A DNA stretch of 64,000 nt from Pyrobaculum sp. 3827-6 (GTDB lineage Archaea; Thermoproteota; Thermoprotei; Thermoproteales; Thermoproteaceae): NCBI RefSeq assembly GCF_025641885.1, contig NZ_JAOTQN010000001.1:1054001-1118000 (forward strand), in the 5' to 3' direction. The position numbers and the translations under genes are program-made. The notes under the pieces were generated by a model, which saw only the letters and a program-made list of their open reading frames with translations, was not told the origin of the DNA and did not search any database. Positions 55,660 through 64,000 of this stretch are shown here, one piece after another. How positions within the stretch are numbered: the first letter of the stretch is position 1; every line of letters begins with the position of its first letter.

Positions 55660-56052
55660 GTGGGCGTCTTGATTTCGCTGGCGCTTCACTCCTCTTTTTA
55701 CAGCCCTGTAAGAGTTGTGAATGTTTTCCTTGCCGAGGAGCACAACAAGGGCCGCGTTGCAGAGGTGGAGAAGGCGGAGAGGATTGTGGAAGAGGAGGTG
55801 CAGTCGCTTGAGCTGTTTCTAAGGAGGCGTTGGGTCGAGGAGAGGTTGGCTGGGCTACTGTCTTACTGAGTTAAGATCGCCGAGGGTGAGGGCGAGAGGG
55901 CCGGCGGGGGGCTTGCGAAGACTGCCGCACTGAGCGCAGTCAAGAAGAGCATTCTCCCACTTATCAACTACACGAAGTACATGGCGCTTGAAAAACCTGA
56001 AGAGGCTGAGAAACTTATTTCAATTCTTGAAAAGGTATATAAAATTAAATAA
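55660..56052 (+). pseudogene. C-terminal fragment of glutamyl-tRNA reductase
   Basis: The open stretch reads VVNVFLAEEHNKGRVAEVEK, AERIVEEEVQSLELFLRRRW, VEERLAGLLSY, hits a TGA (55867-55869), and continues in frame as VKIAEGEGERAGG and AVKKSILPLINYTKYMALEK. The N..R..EV..AE.IVEEE pattern is the dimerisation spine of HemA. The catalytic and NADPH domains are absent, so this is a broken, orphan 3' piece. Confidence 0.65.
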
Positions 56053-56072: not shown

Positions 56073-56627
56073 ATGTCTAGATCTACAGTGCCTGTGGAGG
56101 GAGACGTAGCTAAGGAGCTGTCAACAGTGGCCAAGTCGCAGGGATTTTCCGTGTTGAGACTAGCCTCTGATTCCTTGAAGCTGGCTCTAGAGCTTTTAAA
56201 ACGCGGAATCACCCCAACCAGAGCTATAGAGATGTGGAGGCTGATGGAGAAAATCGCTGCGTTCGACGCGGTGCCCGTCCCCCTCTCCTACCTAGAGCTG
56301 GTGGCTAAGAAGTGGGGGATTTGCGAAGATCCTGAGGTAGAGGCCTTCCTCAGGGAGATAGGGGCTAGGTTCGGCAAAACCGTTGCGGGGGAGTTTAAGA
56401 GCTTCGGCGAGTTTATGTCGGTGGCTACCCAGCTTCTCTCGATGTTGCCGGTGGCTAGGCTCTCCCTCAGCCGGGGCGGCAACATGTGGCGTATTGTCTT
56501 CACCTCGGCGGGGTCCTTCTCTATGAAGTGCCTGGGCTACTTCGCCGAGGAGGCTGTAAAACAGTTTGGGTGTGTGGTGAAGATTTCCTACGGGGACTCT
56601 ACGATCACCGCAGAGATCACGTGTTGA
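56073..56627 (+). CDS. putative regulator, paralogue of the next gene
   Basis: The start is the ATG at 56073 because GAGGAGGTG (56054-56062) is a strong ribosome-binding site at the right distance; an earlier in-frame ATG at 56052 lies on it. The 184-residue protein begins RSTVPVEGDVAKELSTVAKS, with a helical region LASDSLKLALELLKRGITPT like an elongated ribbon-helix-helix domain. It then has a C-terminal sensor-like domain with three Cys (CEDPEVEA, MKCLGYFAEEAVKQFGCVVK) and ends in Cys. Gene order and architecture match the adjacent gene at 56659. It sits upstream of a respiratory operon, so it may control it. The family is not recognised. Confidence 0.6.
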   Translation: MSRSTVPVEGDVAKELSTVAKSQGFSVLRLASDSLKLALELLKRGITPTRAIEMWRLMEKIAAFDAVPVPLSYLELVAKKWGICEDPEVEAFLREIGARFGKTVAGEFKSFGEFMSVATQLLSMLPVARLSLSRGGNMWRIVFTSAGSFSMKCLGYFAEEAVKQFGCVVKISYGDSTITAEITC

Positions 56628-56630
56628 CAA

Positions 56631-56661
56631 TATTTATATCCACTGTACAGTTCTGTACATG
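56631..56661 (+). promoter_or_regulatory. TATA box and operator candidate TGTACA-N4-TGTACA
   Basis: TATTTATAT (56631-56639) is followed by TGTACA-GTTC-TGTACA at 56644-56659, overlapping the ATG at 56659. The first hexamer is part of the perfect palindrome ACTGTACAGT. Lying downstream of TATA, a bound regulator would block transcription, as in autorepression. The same arrangement with two changes recurs at 62369-62384. Confidence 0.65.
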
Positions 56662-57096
56662 GTTAACAAATATGCAAGACTAGCAGTGGAGAGATCTCTT
56701 GCCGACACTTTTTCGCAGAAGGTACGGAAAATGGGACGCAAGCCCTCTGACGTAATATCCGCGGCTTTGAAAGCGGTTATAGACGCCGTTGATCACGGCG
56801 TCGACCCCATAGATATGATTCATATATGTCGAATAGCCAGGGCGGTGGGGATCGGAAGGGGGGGCTACGAAGTTGGGCTAAACGCAGGCGCTTTGCTCAG
56901 GGCGTACTACACCCCGCAGGAGTTTCTAGAAGTATTGACGAGGGTGGGCCCTCAGGCAATGGGCGTCTACAGGATTGCCCCCGGCGTTTTTAGGATTAAC
57001 GACCCGCAGCTCCGGGAGACTGTGCGGGGGTTGCTGACCGGCATGGGGTGTAGATGCGAGGAGAGTCAAGAAATCCTCAAGGTTGTCTGCGACTGA
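56659..57096 (+). CDS. putative regulator adjacent to molybdopterin oxidoreductase operon
   Basis: The 145-residue product has an N-terminal region (YARLAVERSLADTFSQKVRK, then PSDVISAALKAVIDAVDHGV) that resembles a ribbon-helix-helix domain. The middle block is DPIDMIHICRIARAVGIGRG, and the C-terminus contains clustered cysteines (GMGCRCEESQEILKVVCD). The preceding gene has the same layout. A leaderless promoter with a repeated TGTACA site lies directly before it. By position it is the best candidate for the protein that binds that site. A cysteine-based sensor of redox state, sulfur species or metal is plausible but inferred. Confidence 0.6.
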   Translation: MVNKYARLAVERSLADTFSQKVRKMGRKPSDVISAALKAVIDAVDHGVDPIDMIHICRIARAVGIGRGGYEVGLNAGALLRAYYTPQEFLEVLTRVGPQAMGVYRIAPGVFRINDPQLRETVRGLLTGMGCRCEESQEILKVVCD

Positions 57097-57178
57097 AGGT
57101 ACACAAGTTATAAATCTTGTACACAGCTTGATCAAGTTTTATAACAAGAGTTAAATGCATCACAAGTCGTGTAGACGC
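57097..57178 (+). promoter_or_regulatory. promoter region of the molybdopterin oxidoreductase operon
   Basis: GTACACA occurs at 57099-57105 and 57119-57125, exactly two helical turns apart, flanking TTATAAAT (57108-57115); ACAAG and CTTGT form an inverted repeat around that box. A second TATA-like GTTTTATAAC is at 57136-57144, next to the palindrome CTTGATCAAG (57127-57136). Two promoters or an operator-overlapped promoter are possible. Confidence 0.5.
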
Positions 57179-60100
57179 ATGTCTATCTCTAGAAGAGATG
57201 CGATTAAGGCCGGGGTCACAATAGGTATTGTTGCAGGCGCCTCTGGCCTTTTGCTTAAGGCTACTGCTGGCGAGGTGCCTAAGGCCGGCGTCTCCATAAC
57301 ATCTATCCCCTCTATCTGTGGTATGTGTATGGCGCAATGCGCAATCTACATCGACGTGGTGGACGGCAAGCCGGTGAGAATTAGGCCCAATACCAACGCC
57401 CCAACCAGCGCCTTGGGGATATGTCCCCGGGGGGCCTCCGGCACCTTCAACGCCTGGCTTAACCCAGACGCCGTGAAGAAGCCCATGGCGAGGAGGGCGC
57501 TTGTAGATTGGGTTCAGGGCAGGATCAGCTGGGAGGAGGCGAAGAGGCAACTGTCTCAGTCGAGGGGGAGGTACGACGACATGGTTGAGGTGGACTGGAA
57601 CACCGCCGTTGAGATAATTGCCAAGAAGCTAAAGGAGCTGGCCGACGGCAACGAGCGCCGCGCCTTCACCTTCCTCTTCGGCGCGTGGGGCCCCATCGCA
57701 TCTATGAGGGCCGGTGTGCCCATCTCCCGCTTCGCCGACGCCTATGGAGGCGGCATGATAACCTTCGACAACCCCTACTGCACGTACCCCCGCTACCTGG
57801 GGCACTGGCTAACATGGGGCCACGGCCACCAGTCCCATGTCGCCTGTATCGACTACTCCGAGGCGGAGGCTGTCCTCGTAGTTAGGAGAAACGTAATCGG
57901 CGCGGGGGTGGTGACGGAGACGTGGCGCTTCATGGAGGCAGTGAAGAGGGGGGCGAAGCTGGTGGTGCTCAGCCCCGTCTTCGACGAGACGGCCAGCTAC
58001 GCCACGGTGTGGCTACCTGTCAAGCCCGGCACAGACCTGGCGGTGTTGCTAGCCTTCATTAAATATGTCCTCGACAACGGCTACTACATTGAGCAGTATC
58101 TGGCCAGGTTTACCAACGCGCCGTTTCTCATAAAGGAAGACGGACTGCCCCTCCTGGCTTCGGAGGTGGCCTGGGATAAGTACGGCCTGTCTGAGCCCAA
58201 GGACTTTGCCTACGTTGTGTGGGACTCAGCCGCCGGCGCCCCCGCCCCCGACAACGCGGCCAAGAGGCCCGCCCTCTTTGGGCAATACGAGGTCCAGCTG
58301 AAGGACGGCGGCGTGGCGAGGGCGAAGACCGCGTTGACGATACTAAAGGAGTGGGTAGACGCCAACCTCTCAGCCCTCGCCAAGAAGCACGGGGTTAGCG
58401 ACTACATGGAGGCCGCGGCGAAGGAGGCTGATGTAAATGTCAACGACCTCAGAAGGGCGGCGGAGATCGTGGCGAAGTACAGAGCCGTTGCCCCCATCGG
58501 GTGGCACGACCCCCGCTACAGCAACTCGCCGCAGACGTGGCGCGCCGTCAATATCTTGATGGCCCTTCTGGGCCGCATCCAGCAACCGGGAGGTCTCTTC
58601 CTCTTGACTCATCTCATCATGCCGTATTCGGACGTCTACACCAGAGCGATGAAGTACACTAAGAAGGACGTTCCCTACAAGACAATCCGCGGCCTCACCT
58701 TCAACGAATACGTGTCTGCCAACCTCCCGGCTATCTACGTGATTCCGCTCGCCCCGCCTCTGCCCGGCCCCTCTGACCGCGGCGCCCCGCCGGTGCCAAC
58801 GCTGGCGGAGGAGTGGGCGGTGGAGGCGGAGAAAGAGGGCTACCTCTACCCCTACGACACGGTGCAGGCGCTGTACGAGAGCGTTGTCCATGGGAAGCCG
58901 TTTAAGATAAAGGTGGTGTTTATCACCGGCTCTAACCCTATTCCGCAGATCGGCAACAGCAAACTCGTCGAGGCGATTTTCAGAGAGCTGGATTTAGTAA
59001 TTGTACACGATATACAGTTCAGCGACACATCCGCGTTCGCCGACTTGATACTCCCCGATCTTCCATACCTAGAGCGCATGGATTTGGCCCTGCCTGGGGC
59101 CTTCTCGCCGTTCCCCGCCATTTCTGTGAGGTTCCCGTGGTACTACGAGGAGTATATAAAGATGCTCCAGCAGGGCGGGAAGCCGGGGGAGCTGGACAAG
59201 CAGTTTAGGTCGAGGGACGGCCGTACGATATTCGAGGTTCTGCTGATGGTAGCTCGGAGGCTTCAGCAGATGGGCGTCAAGGCTAGAGACGGCACCGACT
59301 GGTCTCAGAACATGCCTGTGGGCATGATCACCGAGGACGGCATCTTCCCGATACCCAATCTAAAGATGTTTATCAACGCCACTTTTAGGCGTATTAGGAT
59401 TGTGGACGAAAACGGCCAGTTGAGGGCCCCCACGGTGGACGACCTGTATAAGATGGGGAGCTGGATGGTGCTGGTCCCCACCGGCCGCGTCGAGACTGTG
59501 GTAGACGAGCGGTGGAGCCAAGCCCTCGGCAAGGAGGTGAAGGTGAAGGTCCACGTGTTTAAGCCGGTGCAGTACAGCGTAGATATGGAGCAGTGGCTTT
59601 GGAGGCAGATACACTACAACTCTCCCCTGACGCAGGGCCTCGCGCCGCTTCCCACGCCGAGCGGCAAGGTGGAGATCTACAGTATAAACCTGGCTTACGA
59701 CGTGAAGAGGGTATTCGGAAAGCCCGCCACTTCAATTGACCCCTCCGACCTGGAAGGCGCTAAGAGCGGCGTGGATCCTCTCTTCTCGCCTGTGCCGCTG
59801 TACGCCGGGATGGCTAGGCCGGAGTACATGTGGGCCACCGGCCCGCCGACGCCAGACGTGGAGATCAACGGCCTCGTGCCCCCCGACCCGCCTAAGAGGC
59901 TTCTGTTCCTATACCGCCACGGCCCGTTCACTCAAACTCACAGCGCCACGGAGAACAACCTCCTCCTTGACACGTTAACGCCGGACGAGTTGTTGACTGC
60001 GTGGATCCACCCGGACACCGCGGCGAAGCTGGGGGTTGGGGACGGCGACGTGGTTGAGCTCAAGCCCGCGGCCCCCAAGGTGTTGGAGCAGTTGAAGGCA

Positions 60101-60355
60101 GTGGGCGTCGCCGAGGTGCCGACGGCTAGGTTTAGGGTGAGGGTGACGAAGATGGTGAGGCCGGATGTGATAGCCATCTACCACTACTGGCTGGTGCCCC
60201 GGGGCAGGCTGAGGGTGAAGGCGGCGAAGCTGGCGGGGTTGAGGTCTGGCTACAGCGACGACAACTACCTAGGCCCCATGCTGGCGGGGAGGCTCGGCAC
60301 GCCGGGGGCCATGGGCAATACAGTAGTAGAAGTGAGTAAGGTGGAGAGGCTATGA
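57179..60355 (+). CDS. Tat-exported molybdopterin oxidoreductase (CISM family catalytic subunit)
   Basis: The large catalytic subunit of the DMSO-reductase superfamily has about 1058 residues. The Tat signal SISRRDAIKAGVTIGIVAGA is at the N-terminus, so the enzyme faces outside. A 4Fe-4S motif follows (CGMCMAQC...CPRG), then the molybdo-bis-MGD domains. The NPYC segment (Cys near residue 201) is the probable Mo ligand. Overall it resembles tetrathionate, thiosulfate/polysulfide and arsenate reductases; the substrate cannot be assigned by eye. The next genes supply the ferredoxin and NrfD subunits. The ATG at 57179 places the RR pair close to the start; an in-frame ATG at 57155 is the alternative. 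Confidence 0.88.
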   Translation: MSISRRDAIKAGVTIGIVAGASGLLLKATAGEVPKAGVSITSIPSICGMCMAQCAIYIDVVDGKPVRIRPNTNAPTSALGICPRGASGTFNAWLNPDAVKKPMARRALVDWVQGRISWEEAKRQLSQSRGRYDDMVEVDWNTAVEIIAKKLKELADGNERRAFTFLFGAWGPIASMRAGVPISRFADAYGGGMITFDNPYCTYPRYLGHWLTWGHGHQSHVACIDYSEAEAVLVVRRNVIGAGVVTETWRFMEAVKRGAKLVVLSPVFDETASYATVWLPVKPGTDLAVLLAFIKYVLDNGYYIEQYLARFTNAPFLIKEDGLPLLASEVAWDKYGLSEPKDFAYVVWDSAAGAPAPDNAAKRPALFGQYEVQLKDGGVARAKTALTILKEWVDANLSALAKKHGVSDYMEAAAKEADVNVNDLRRAAEIVAKYRAVAPIGWHDPRYSNSPQTWRAVNILMALLGRIQQPGGLFLLTHLIMPYSDVYTRAMKYTKKDVPYKTIRGLTFNEYVSANLPAIYVIPLAPPLPGPSDRGAPPVPTLAEEWAVEAEKEGYLYPYDTVQALYESVVHGKPFKIKVVFITGSNPIPQIGNSKLVEAIFRELDLVIVHDIQFSDTSAFADLILPDLPYLERMDLALPGAFSPFPAISVRFPWYYEEYIKMLQQGGKPGELDKQFRSRDGRTIFEVLLMVARRLQQMGVKARDGTDWSQNMPVGMITEDGIFPIPNLKMFINATFRRIRIVDENGQLRAPTVDDLYKMGSWMVLVPTGRVETVVDERWSQALGKEVKVKVHVFKPVQYSVDMEQWLWRQIHYNSPLTQGLAPLPTPSGKVEIYSINLAYDVKRVFGKPATSIDPSDLEGAKSGVDPLFSPVPLYAGMARPEYMWATGPPTPDVEINGLVPPDPPKRLLFLYRHGPFTQTHSATENNLLLDTLTPDELLTAWIHPDTAAKLGVGDGDVVELKPAAPKVLEQLKAVGVAEVPTARFRVRVTKMVRPDVIAIYHYWLVPRGRLRVKAAKLAGLRSGYSDDNYLGPMLAGRLGTPGAMGNTVVEVSKVERL

Positions 60356-61038
60356 GGCCGGTATTTGTCATTGATCTCAATAAGTGCGTCGGTTGCCGCG
60401 CGTGCGTAGCCGCTTGTGTGCAGGAGAACGGCCAGGTGTTCACCGCCGCACGGACTGCAGACATCGGCAGGCCTCAGACTGTTTGGCTGAGGACGTGGGT
60501 GGAGTGGAGGGAGAGGGAGGATCCCACGCCGTCTAGGGAGTATATATCATATCTATGTTACCACTGTGAGAACTCGCCCTGTGTTACGGCGTGTCCAACC
60601 GGCGCCTCTTACAAGACCAAGGAGGGAATTGTGTTGGTAGACAAAGATCTGTGTATCGGTTGCCGCTACTGCGTCGTGGCTTGTCCATACGGCATGAGAT
60701 ACGGGCCGCTGGTTAAAACCGCTGAAAAAGCTATGGAGGAGCCGCTAGTGAGGGAGGCGGCCGAGGGGGCTAAATACGGCGGGGTGATATTTAAACCGCC
60801 TGTACCTAATAAATGGGCCTTTAGAGCAGACGCCGTTGATAAGTGTACCTTCTGTTACCACAGATATAAGGGAGATGGCAAGATATGGACGCCTGCATGC
60901 GTAGAGGTATGTCCTACAAAGTCTCGGATGGTAGGCGATTTAGACGATCCCAACGACGAGGTGGCTGACTTGGTGCGTAGGGGCGTAGCTAAGCCGGCTA
61001 ATAAATGGGGAGGGTTGGTGTACTACGTGGGGCTATGA
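60352..61038 (+). CDS. four-cluster ferredoxin subunit of molybdopterin oxidoreductase
   Basis: This 228-residue protein of the PsrB/TtrB/ArrB type has cluster motifs CVGCRACVAAC, CYHCENSPCVTACP, CIGCRYCVVACP, and CTFC...CVEVCP. It carries electrons between the membrane NrfD subunit and the molybdenum subunit, and is co-exported with the latter. ATGA overlaps join it to both neighbours. Confidence 0.93.
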   Translation: MRPVFVIDLNKCVGCRACVAACVQENGQVFTAARTADIGRPQTVWLRTWVEWREREDPTPSREYISYLCYHCENSPCVTACPTGASYKTKEGIVLVDKDLCIGCRYCVVACPYGMRYGPLVKTAEKAMEEPLVREAAEGAKYGGVIFKPPVPNKWAFRADAVDKCTFCYHRYKGDGKIWTPACVEVCPTKSRMVGDLDDPNDEVADLVRRGVAKPANKWGGLVYYVGL

Positions 61039-62204
61039 GCAGGAATATGAAGTGGGGTTTGGCGGGCCTCGCGGTGGTTTTAATCGCGGCTGGAGCTGTG
61101 CTGATCTGGCAGGGTAGTGAACATAGACATGCCGAGGTCATCCCCTGGGGCCTACTGGTGCCTGGATATGTCTATTTTGCTTTAGTAGCCACGGGCTCGT
61201 GTATTGTAAATTCGATTTACACAGTATTTGGGTATAAGGGGCCCAACAAAGAGTATGAGAAGATCATTAAGTTGGGCGTGTTCTTCTCACTGGCATCACT
61301 TATCCCGGCGTGGATTATGATATTAATGGACTTGTCAAAAGGACCGCTTGCCGCGATGAGTATGTTTATCCATACCAAGGAGGGCTTCTCGCTGTTCTTC
61401 CAGCCTCGTTCAGCAATTGCATGGATGGCCTTACTATACATGATAGAGGGACTTCTCCTACTAGTTGAATTAATATACTTTATACGTAGTGAAGTAAGTG
61501 AAAAACTAAAAATGATGAAATCGCTTGAGCTCGTCATTGCCCTAGCTGTATTAATCGCCTCCGTGCTAGTCTTCAGCAACCTAGGCCAGGTATTTGGCGA
61601 CGTCATGGCTATACCTGCGTGGTACGGGCCGCACATGGCTGTTTACTTCATTATCAGCGCTATAGCAATAGGCGCCGCTGGCCAGGCTTTATTCGTATCG
61701 CTTTTTGCACGTAGCTTAGGCGTACGGGAATTCACTGCGTGGTACTATTCTAGGATATTAATGATTTCTTTACCAATTTTAGCATTCGTAAAGGGGTGGA
61801 TGGTGATTAACTCGTATTACAACCCAGCCAGTTGGGAAGCCTACAGAGAAATAGTGTCTATGCCTACCTTTTACGTATTTGATGTATTTCTGTTACTAGT
61901 CTTGCCGTTTATAGTGGCTATAGTGGCCTACTATAGAAAGAACATGGCCTTACTCATTTTAGCTACGTTGTTGCTCGTGGTGTCTGGGTTTGTGAGTGAA
62001 TACCACTTGCTAATCTACCCACAGATAGCCTTTATCCAGAGTTATCTTGGAGAGGCCGGCCACGTCCACTATGCGCCTACAGAGTTTGAGATGATGATGT
62101 TCACCGGGTCGGTGTTGGTGTACATAGCATTGTTAATACTCGGCGTATTGCTTCTACCTCTAAAGCCAGGCGAGAAACCTAAAACTTTATATATTTTTAA
62201 GTAA
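61035..62204 (+). CDS. NrfD/PsrC-like membrane subunit
   Basis: The start is the ATG at 61035 overlapping the previous stop. The product has about 389 residues and roughly ten membrane helices (e.g. GLAGLAVVLIAAGAVLIW, MALLYMIEGLLLLVELIYFI, FDVFLLLVLPFIVAIVAYY). It matches the NrfD/PsrC family, which exchanges electrons with quinones and anchors the oxidoreductase. It completes the three-subunit enzyme. It uses more AT-rich codons than its neighbours, as membrane genes here often do. Confidence 0.88.
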   Translation: MSRNMKWGLAGLAVVLIAAGAVLIWQGSEHRHAEVIPWGLLVPGYVYFALVATGSCIVNSIYTVFGYKGPNKEYEKIIKLGVFFSLASLIPAWIMILMDLSKGPLAAMSMFIHTKEGFSLFFQPRSAIAWMALLYMIEGLLLLVELIYFIRSEVSEKLKMMKSLELVIALAVLIASVLVFSNLGQVFGDVMAIPAWYGPHMAVYFIISAIAIGAAGQALFVSLFARSLGVREFTAWYYSRILMISLPILAFVKGWMVINSYYNPASWEAYREIVSMPTFYVFDVFLLLVLPFIVAIVAYYRKNMALLILATLLLVVSGFVSEYHLLIYPQIAFIQSYLGEAGHVHYAPTEFEMMMFTGSVLVYIALLILGVLLLPLKPGEKPKTLYIFK

Positions 62205-62368
62205 ACTGCCTCAAAAACTAAATAAAAATTATATTTTTTGTATATAGAGCAGTATCTTAAATTTTATTAGTAATATGACTTATTAAAAGCCTTTAAGGAA
62301 AGTCTTCATATTGATTTCTCACAAGAAGTGTAGAAGAGGTTGTTTTTCCGAACTCTGTTCTTTATCGG
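62205..62368. other. AT-rich intergenic region
   Basis: This 160-bp spacer has several T runs (62226-62270) that may terminate the NrfD transcript. No gene is seen. Confidence 0.4.
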
Positions 62369-62406
62369 TGTACAACTCTGTACAAATTTTTTACCAATAC
62401 TTAAAT
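62369..62406 (+). promoter_or_regulatory. operator candidate TGTACA-N4-TGTACA and TATA box of the SQR gene
   Basis: TGTACA-ACTC-TGTACA at 62369-62384 differs from the element at 56644-56659 only in two of the four spacer bases. It ends 14 bases before TACTTAAAT (62398-62406), the TATA box of the ATG at 62427. Lying upstream of TATA it suits activation or BRE occlusion. Confidence 0.65.
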
Positions 62407-62426: not shown

Positions 62427-63587
62427 ATGCCTAAAAAACTGCTGGTTCTGGGCGGCGGCACCGGCGGCTTGGTGATTTCTAAAGAGGTTAGGGAGTTGTT
62501 TAAGCCGGAGGAGGTGGAGATCACGGTGGTTGACATGAGGGATAGGACCGAGTTCCGCCCCTCGTATCTATACGTGGCGTTTGGCTACAGAAAGCCGGAG
62601 CAGATAAGCGCGCCGCTGGAGTACTTAAAGCGCCGTGGTATAAACTTCGTAAAGGCAAGAGTGACGAAAATAGACGCCGCGAATAGAAGGGTTTCGACAA
62701 CAGCGGGTGACTTCACCTACGACAACCTCGTCGTTGCGCTGGGGGCGGAGACTGTGGACACGGGCTTTCCCCATACATGGGAGCTGGAGCCCTCGCTTAA
62801 GGTGGCCGAGGCGCTGAGCAACGTAAAACAGGGCCACGTGGTGATCGGAGCCTACTCACTGCCTTATAGATGCCCACCTGCGCCGATTGAGCTGGCGATG
62901 CTAACCCACTTCTACTACCTCACCAGGGGGCGGAGGGACAAGGTGAAGATCACAGTGGTTCACCCGTCGAAGCGGCCTTTTGAGAGCTTCGGCCCCATGG
63001 CGGCTAAGTGGATGTCTGGCTTCCTACAGCAGTTAGGCATTGAGTACATTGGGGTGGGTCAGGGGCAGGCGATTAAGAGTCTTGGGAAGAACGAGCTGGA
63101 GACCACGACTGGCGAGAGGGTGAAGTTCGACGCGGCGTTTATTGTGCCGCCGCATAAGGCGCCCGACCCCGTGCTGGGGAGCGATCTGGTTAAGAACGGC
63201 TGGGCCGCGCCGAGGAGCCCGCCAGACGGCGATTTTAGAAGTGAGAAGTACGATGACGTGTACGTTGTCGGCGACGTCGCGGCGCCTAACGTCCCCGTGG
63301 GGATGGCTGGGACAATTCTACACAGCTACGCGCCGTGGGTTGTGAGCAACATCGCAGCCGACCTCGCCGGCGTTTCCATCGGCAAGCCGCCGTTTAGGAT
63401 CGTGGGGACCTGCGCCCTTGACGTGGGGGCATACGGCATGGCCGCCGCCTGCGACTTCACGCCGTTTGTCAAGAAGCAGAAGCCCTACCCAGACTGCATG
63501 TTCCTCCCGCCGTCGCCAGTCACCAGAATCTTCAAAGAGATGTTTGAAAAGGTCTACTTCAACTGGCTTCTGGGGGTGGTGCCATGA
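62427..63587 (+). CDS. sulfide:quinone oxidoreductase-like flavoprotein
   Basis: This 386-residue FAD protein has GGGTGGLVISKEV (dinucleotide-binding, residues 9-21), EFRPSYLYVAFG, YDNLVVALGAETV, VVGDVAAPNVPVGMAGT (second FAD motif) and cysteines in PYRCPPAPIE and CALDVGAYGMAAACDF, as in the SQR/FCSD family. The family oxidises sulfide to sulfur and reduces quinone at the membrane surface; the C-terminal amphipathic end (FEKVYFNWLLGVVP) fits membrane attachment. It is apparently leaderless and has an operator candidate in common with the regulator gene at 56659. It overlaps a DUF1641 gene. Confidence 0.88.
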   Translation: MPKKLLVLGGGTGGLVISKEVRELFKPEEVEITVVDMRDRTEFRPSYLYVAFGYRKPEQISAPLEYLKRRGINFVKARVTKIDAANRRVSTTAGDFTYDNLVVALGAETVDTGFPHTWELEPSLKVAEALSNVKQGHVVIGAYSLPYRCPPAPIELAMLTHFYYLTRGRRDKVKITVVHPSKRPFESFGPMAAKWMSGFLQQLGIEYIGVGQGQAIKSLGKNELETTTGERVKFDAAFIVPPHKAPDPVLGSDLVKNGWAAPRSPPDGDFRSEKYDDVYVVGDVAAPNVPVGMAGTILHSYAPWVVSNIAADLAGVSIGKPPFRIVGTCALDVGAYGMAAACDFTPFVKKQKPYPDCMFLPPSPVTRIFKEMFEKVYFNWLLGVVP

Positions 63588-64000
63588 GCGAGGTGGTTAC
63601 CATATCCAAGGCCGACTACCAGCGCCTGCTCGCCGAGGTGGAGGCGCTGAGGAAAGAGGTGGAGGAGCTCAGCTCCCTGTTGTTGCCGGTGAAGATCGTG
63701 CTGGAGAAGCTACCGCACTTAATGGCCGACATACAAGTCTTTAAAGTGGCGGCTCCGCTGATCTCCATGCTGTCCATCATGGACGCCGCCGACCTAAACG
63801 CCTTAGGCGCCGCGATGCAGGGAGGTGTGACGTGTACAAGCAAGGCGCTGAGGCAAATAGCGGAAAACGGCGCCCCCAAGGTGGAGCTCATGGACCTCCT
63901 CAACGCCATGCGCGACCCAGAGGTGCAGAAGGCCATGGGCATAATGCTGACGATACTAAAGGCAATGGGTAGCTGCATGGAGGAGAACCTAAAACAGGTC
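63584..64000 (+). CDS. DUF1641-type protein, partial at window end
   Basis: The gene starts at the ATG overlapping the SQR stop and runs off the window after 139 residues. It has an N-terminal coiled coil (DYQRLLAEVEALRKEVEELS), then LPHLMADIQVFKVAAPLISM and MGIMLTILKAMGSC, a pattern of DUF1641 proteins that are often encoded next to sulfide:quinone or NADH dehydrogenase-like flavoproteins. Its role is unknown; it probably helps the flavoprotein. Confidence 0.75.
   Translation, partial: MSEVVTISKADYQRLLAEVEALRKEVEELSSLLLPVKIVLEKLPHLMADIQVFKVAAPLISMLSIMDAADLNALGAAMQGGVTCTSKALRQIAENGAPKVELMDLLNAMRDPEVQKAMGIMLTILKAMGSCMEENLKQV

Follow-up and report, generated by a model that had tools for sequence, protein, structure and literature searches.

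A paired TGTACA element conserved upstream of a putative regulator gene, a Mo-oxidoreductase operon and an SQR-like gene in Pyrobaculum

The window analyzed here, a 64,000-nucleotide stretch of Pyrobaculum sp. 3827-6 DNA, contains two adjacent genes for regulator-like proteins (reg1 and reg2), followed by a Mo-oxidoreductase operon and a gene encoding an SQR-like flavoprotein. Copies of a paired TGTACA element, interpreted below as a putative operator, lie among these genes as follows:

56073..56627, + strand: reg1, a second regulator-like protein of 184 aa with RHH-like layout and an H-NOX-like C-terminal fold, adjoining reg2
56644..56659, no strand: putative operator copy TGTACAGTTCTGTACA in the promoter of reg2 itself, spanning -15 to +1 relative to the ATG
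56659..57096, + strand: reg2, a 145-aa RHH-like regulator and the likely binder
57118..57134, no strand: degenerate copy TGTACA-N5-TGATCA in the Mo-operon promoter
57179..60355, + strand: catalytic subunit of the Mo-oxidoreductase, with a twin-arginine-like start; first gene of the putative target operon
60352..61038, + strand: iron-sulfur subunit of the Mo-oxidoreductase
61035..62204, + strand: NrfD-type membrane subunit (NrfD above cut-off)
62369..62384, no strand: putative operator copy TGTACAACTCTGTACA preceding the BRE/TATA of the SQR gene, at -58
62427..63587, + strand: SQR-like flavoprotein gene (Pyr_redox_2 and FCSD_central above cut-off), putative target
63584..64000, + strand: DUF1641 protein, overlapping the SQR stop codon and running off the window; probably co-transcribed with SQR

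The catalytic subunit matches Molybdopterin, Molybdop_Fe4S4 and Molydop_binding above the Pfam cut-offs, and its nearest NCBIfam family is PhsA, with a score far below the PhsA cut-off. The 62427 protein scores 178.8 bits against the SQR type III model NF049943, for which the curated cut-off of 525 is set for a selenoprotein subtype. In the related genome G001 the catalytic subunit (L109, 5252-8463, - strand) is encoded by two frames, of 371 and 700 aa, that overlap, an apparent frameshift. Just before reg1, positions 55729-56049 (+ strand) hold what is left of a hemA-like gene for glutamyl-tRNA reductase. It contains an in-frame stop, and 107 residues share 92.5% identity with the C-terminal portion of a longer G003 frame (L010:42-905); the rest of this gene was not found in the window.

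Reading of the sequence confirmed the two TGTACA-N4-TGTACA 16-mers reported in the original prediction, which agree at 14 of 16 bases and have hexamer starts 10 bp, or one helical turn, apart. The first follows ATATTTATAT (56630-56639) and reaches the ATG at 56659, the A of this regulator start codon being its final base. The second stops about 16 bp short of a TATA-like TTAAATA near 62401. A whole-genome pattern search identified these two sites as the only exact copies in the 2.3-Mb genome, where the frequency of TGTACA in the window predicts approximately 0.14 pairs; the element is hence not common genome-wide. Furthermore, TGTACA alone among the 64 palindromic hexamers occurs as an N4-spaced pair in the window. 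When one mismatch was allowed, the same genome yielded four copies, versus three for the reversed control, and weight was therefore given only to copies that are exact or positionally conserved. Two one-mismatch copies, one within an ORF (L003) and one near the start of an unrelated ORF (L004), were attributed to chance on these numbers. A single TGTACA-N14-TGTACA before a radical-SAM-like ORF, matched by one copy of its reversed control, was also discarded. The suggestion that the TGTACA at bases 2-7 of the window, ahead of the split cobN start, marks a further target did not hold up, since the bases ten upstream read CGCGGC and provide no second half-site. Among the papers searched, no relevant one combined Pyrobaculum and TGTACA.

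To follow the element across relatives, promoters were compared orthologue by orthologue, with up to two mismatches allowed for the SQR site. The 11 genomes sampled from the genus, among which G000 denotes the window's genome, contain nine exact copies of the element, versus two of the reversed pattern. Eight of the nine, assigned by their flanks, precede the regulator, the Mo operon or SQR:

Regulator: G000 and G003
Mo operon: G002, G004 and G005
SQR: G000, G001 and a gene fragment in G005

The ninth exact copy lies in G001 (L008; L120 2749-2764), 44 bp before a gene for a DUF981 membrane protein and upstream of thiW on its other side, and is a possible further target in that species.

At SQR, the site is found at -57 to -60 in G000, G001, G003, G006, G007, G017, G018 and the G005 fragment, and besides the window's own genome it is exact in G001, G017, G018 and the fragment. 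Pairwise identity among these promoters reaches 87% and 90% in the two half-sites, versus 29% in the N4 spacer and 28-33% in the flanks. This conservation of half-sites amid diverged flanks and spacer is the classic pattern expected of a protein footprint. The G005 fragment itself (L121, 8596-8700) presents an exact, well-placed element before an SQR gene that has been cut to about 32 recognizable residues. In G017 and G018, which belong to another genus, the exact element lies between the regulator and SQR; in these two genomes and in G015 a regulator copy is found directly 5' of SQR, and no close orthologue of the Mo operon is present.

The original prediction had listed sites at the regulator and SQR promoters, both of which stand, and had missed the copy at the Mo operon, which is degenerate in this genome and exact at -89 in three relatives (G002, G004 and G005). 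The Mo-operon site carries one mismatch in G007 and is weaker at -95 in G001 and at -91 in G006, and a second copy is present at -59 in G004, G005 and G007. The degenerate copy at 57118-57134 aligns by eye with TGTACATGCTTGAACA at -59 in G007 and with TGAACA-N4-TGTACA at -59 in G004 and G005; taken alone it is weak, and a best-match scan of the Mo promoter of the window's genome performed no better than shuffles. At the regulator, the site at -15 is exact in G000 and G003 and has one mismatch in G006, G007 and one of the G015 copies (G015b), the site of the other G015 copy being at -18. A single half-site is left in the regulator promoters of G001, G004 and G005. Conservation upstream of orthologues thus supports the proposal of a dedicated operator linking regulator, Mo operon and SQR, and the predicted difference in placement relative to TATA (-15 at the regulator, -57 to -60 at SQR) is likewise conserved, which fits differing effects at the two promoters.

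G016 and G011 keep an SQR orthologue but have neither the regulator nor the site, which speaks for reg2 as the binder. Several observations count against reading the element as the binding site of reg2, among them the degenerate state of the Mo-promoter copy in the window's own genome. G002 and G014 harbor the regulator together with an SQR gene that lacks the site, and no site was found in the G014 regulator promoter. The start of the G002 regulator gene presents instead the variant palindrome ATGTACTAC-G-GTAGTACAT. The G002 SQR gene (L108, 7124-8293) lies apart from the regulator, with other regulator-like and reg1-type genes nearby or elsewhere, and reg1-type proteins have five matches in that genome, an arrangement that suggests rewiring.

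Orthologues of reg2 were detected in 12 genomes of the family and, outside it, searches returned a single weak match, which covers part of a 557-aa frame. The protein is unnamed by family libraries: searches of Pfam, PHROGs and PDB sequences gave no significant match, NCBIfam gave none, and the lack of a match to Pfam RHH families counts against the assignment proposed here. The AlphaFold model (pLDDT 89) nonetheless predicts an N-terminal stretch that is not placed, then two helices spaced as in RHH proteins, followed by more helices and a beta-beta-alpha-beta-beta domain. Helices 12-24 and 29-45 fit the RHH two-helix layout of approximately 13 and 15 residues, and the predicted strand at residues 1-8 is of low confidence in the monomer model. 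A profile of the first 50 residues aligned to 18 RHH_1 domains of the genus with 84% hhalign probability and in the expected register, versus 1% for the C-terminal part against the same domains. Foldseek returned weak RHH matches, including FitA (2bsq; E about 7, rmsd 2.0 over 36 residues). The invariant residues Y5, R7 and A9 alternate along the predicted N-terminal strand, a pattern suggestive of DNA contact through that strand.

The neighboring reg1 protein directly precedes reg2 in 13 of 13 loci and shares its helix layout. BLASTP detected no match between the two, and their likeness is seen in profiles only, the N-termini matching at 84%. In its C-terminal part reg1 is similar to the H-NOX fold (3tf0; Foldseek E 7.8e-4, TM-score about 0.37), with designed proteins ranking higher. 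H-NOX proteins bind heme through a proximal histidine and a YxSxR motif, whereas the alignment of 13 reg1 sequences contains neither an invariant histidine nor YxSxR, and the C-terminal part of reg1 is joined to an RHH-like N-terminus. We consider it unlikely, though the strongest of the alternatives, that TGTACA is bound by reg1, or by a hetero-oligomer of reg1 and reg2, with reg2 acting only as a modulator. The shared layout and N-terminal match would suit such a role, and the constant presence of reg1 means that co-occurrence does not separate the two proteins as binders. The match of reg1 to the RHH profile is weak (22%), however, and the autogenous site precedes reg2, with no TGTACA within 150 bp of reg1 in 12 of 13 loci. 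Moreover, distant reg1-type proteins are present in G016 and G011, where neither a regulator orthologue nor a site at the SQR orthologue was found.

The same box recurs in distant genomes of the phylum. TGTACA is the TRP box consensus of TrpY, which in Methanothermobacter represses its own gene, and an identical 16-mer occupies the divergent promoter between a trpB-like gene (identified by eye) and a TrpY_fam gene in L079, L080, L083 and L087, at position 1501 (1046 in L080). This box is a candidate operator for trp genes in archaea other than methanogens. Exact copies elsewhere in the phylum fall within coding sequence, among them those in several genomes of family f12 (L100-L106), where the 16-mer lies inside one conserved ORF of about 270 aa; the motif without its position is therefore not evidence. 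The genes adjoining the box in distant archaea would favor binding here by an unlinked regulator, such as a TrpY-type protein or a general respiratory factor, which we judge to be improbable. TrpY belongs to another protein family and targets tryptophan genes, and the TrpY_fam model (NF053754) has no match in the window's genome and none above cut-off in the family. TrpY itself was therefore rejected as the binder here, the box being shared and the regulator not. Furthermore, the site and reg2 co-occur, and the promoter of reg2 itself carries the site. Chance recurrence of a functionless palindromic hexamer is scarcely credible: it would accommodate the one-mismatch counts and the copies inside coding sequence, but not the excess of exact copies over the reversed control in the genus, nor sites kept at constant distances ahead of orthologous genes across several lineages, amid SQR flanks of near random identity, and conservation across genera makes it very unlikely for the exact sites.

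Together, these results lead us to regard the TGTACA pair as a real and conserved operator of a small sulfur-respiration regulon, as judged at the sequence level. The binder is likely reg2, and we think it probable that this protein, perhaps together with reg1, binds the element, repressing the reg2 gene and controlling both SQR and the Mo operon. The two palindromic half-sites would be occupied by two dimers of RHH-type reg2 (145 aa); the one-turn spacing of the half-sites would place these on one face of the helix and suit such an arrangement. At the regulator promoter the site fills the stretch from TATA to start, where bound protein would block initiation, which points most naturally to autorepression. 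The SQR site stands at a fixed distance upstream of BRE/TATA, as in known archaeal activators, and binding is thus more likely to activate. At the Mo operon, where copies around -89 and -59 lie near TATA-like sequences, we assign no sign. The signs proposed for the other two promoters are taken from site position alone.

This arrangement resembles that of AmrZ, an RHH protein of Pseudomonas aeruginosa that binds as a dimer of dimers to two half-sites about one turn apart, repressing its own gene and activating another promoter (PMC3325190). The likeness extends to the paired half-sites and to the combination, proposed here, of self-repression with activation elsewhere, but the AmrZ half-site is GGC with a 5-bp linker in a bacterial promoter, the protein has no detectable sequence relationship to reg2, and for AmrZ binding has been demonstrated whereas here we infer it. 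Similarly, Tar (TK0271) of Thermococcus kodakarensis is an archaeal activator with sites upstream of BRE/TATA (PMC6737238), as is the site at SQR, but its targets concern aromatic amino acids.

The C-terminal domains of reg2 and reg1 may sense a sulfur or redox signal. A more far-reaching proposal, which we advance tentatively, is that reg1 and reg2 form a type of archaeal sensor-regulator not yet described, made of DNA-binding RHH parts joined to H-NOX/V4R-like domains. Such a pair would respond to a sulfur or redox signal and would repress or activate depending on where the same operator stands relative to TATA. The switch outlined above is well supported, yet of an ordinary kind of genetic control. 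To our knowledge, few operators or regulators have been defined for anaerobic sulfur respiration in hyperthermophilic Thermoproteales. If the operator holds, it would define a regulon comprising the regulator, the Mo-oxidoreductase and SQR and built on an exactly delimited 16-bp site. The conserved contrast in where this site is placed would offer a natural test of how, in archaea, its position with respect to TATA determines whether regulation is positive or negative.
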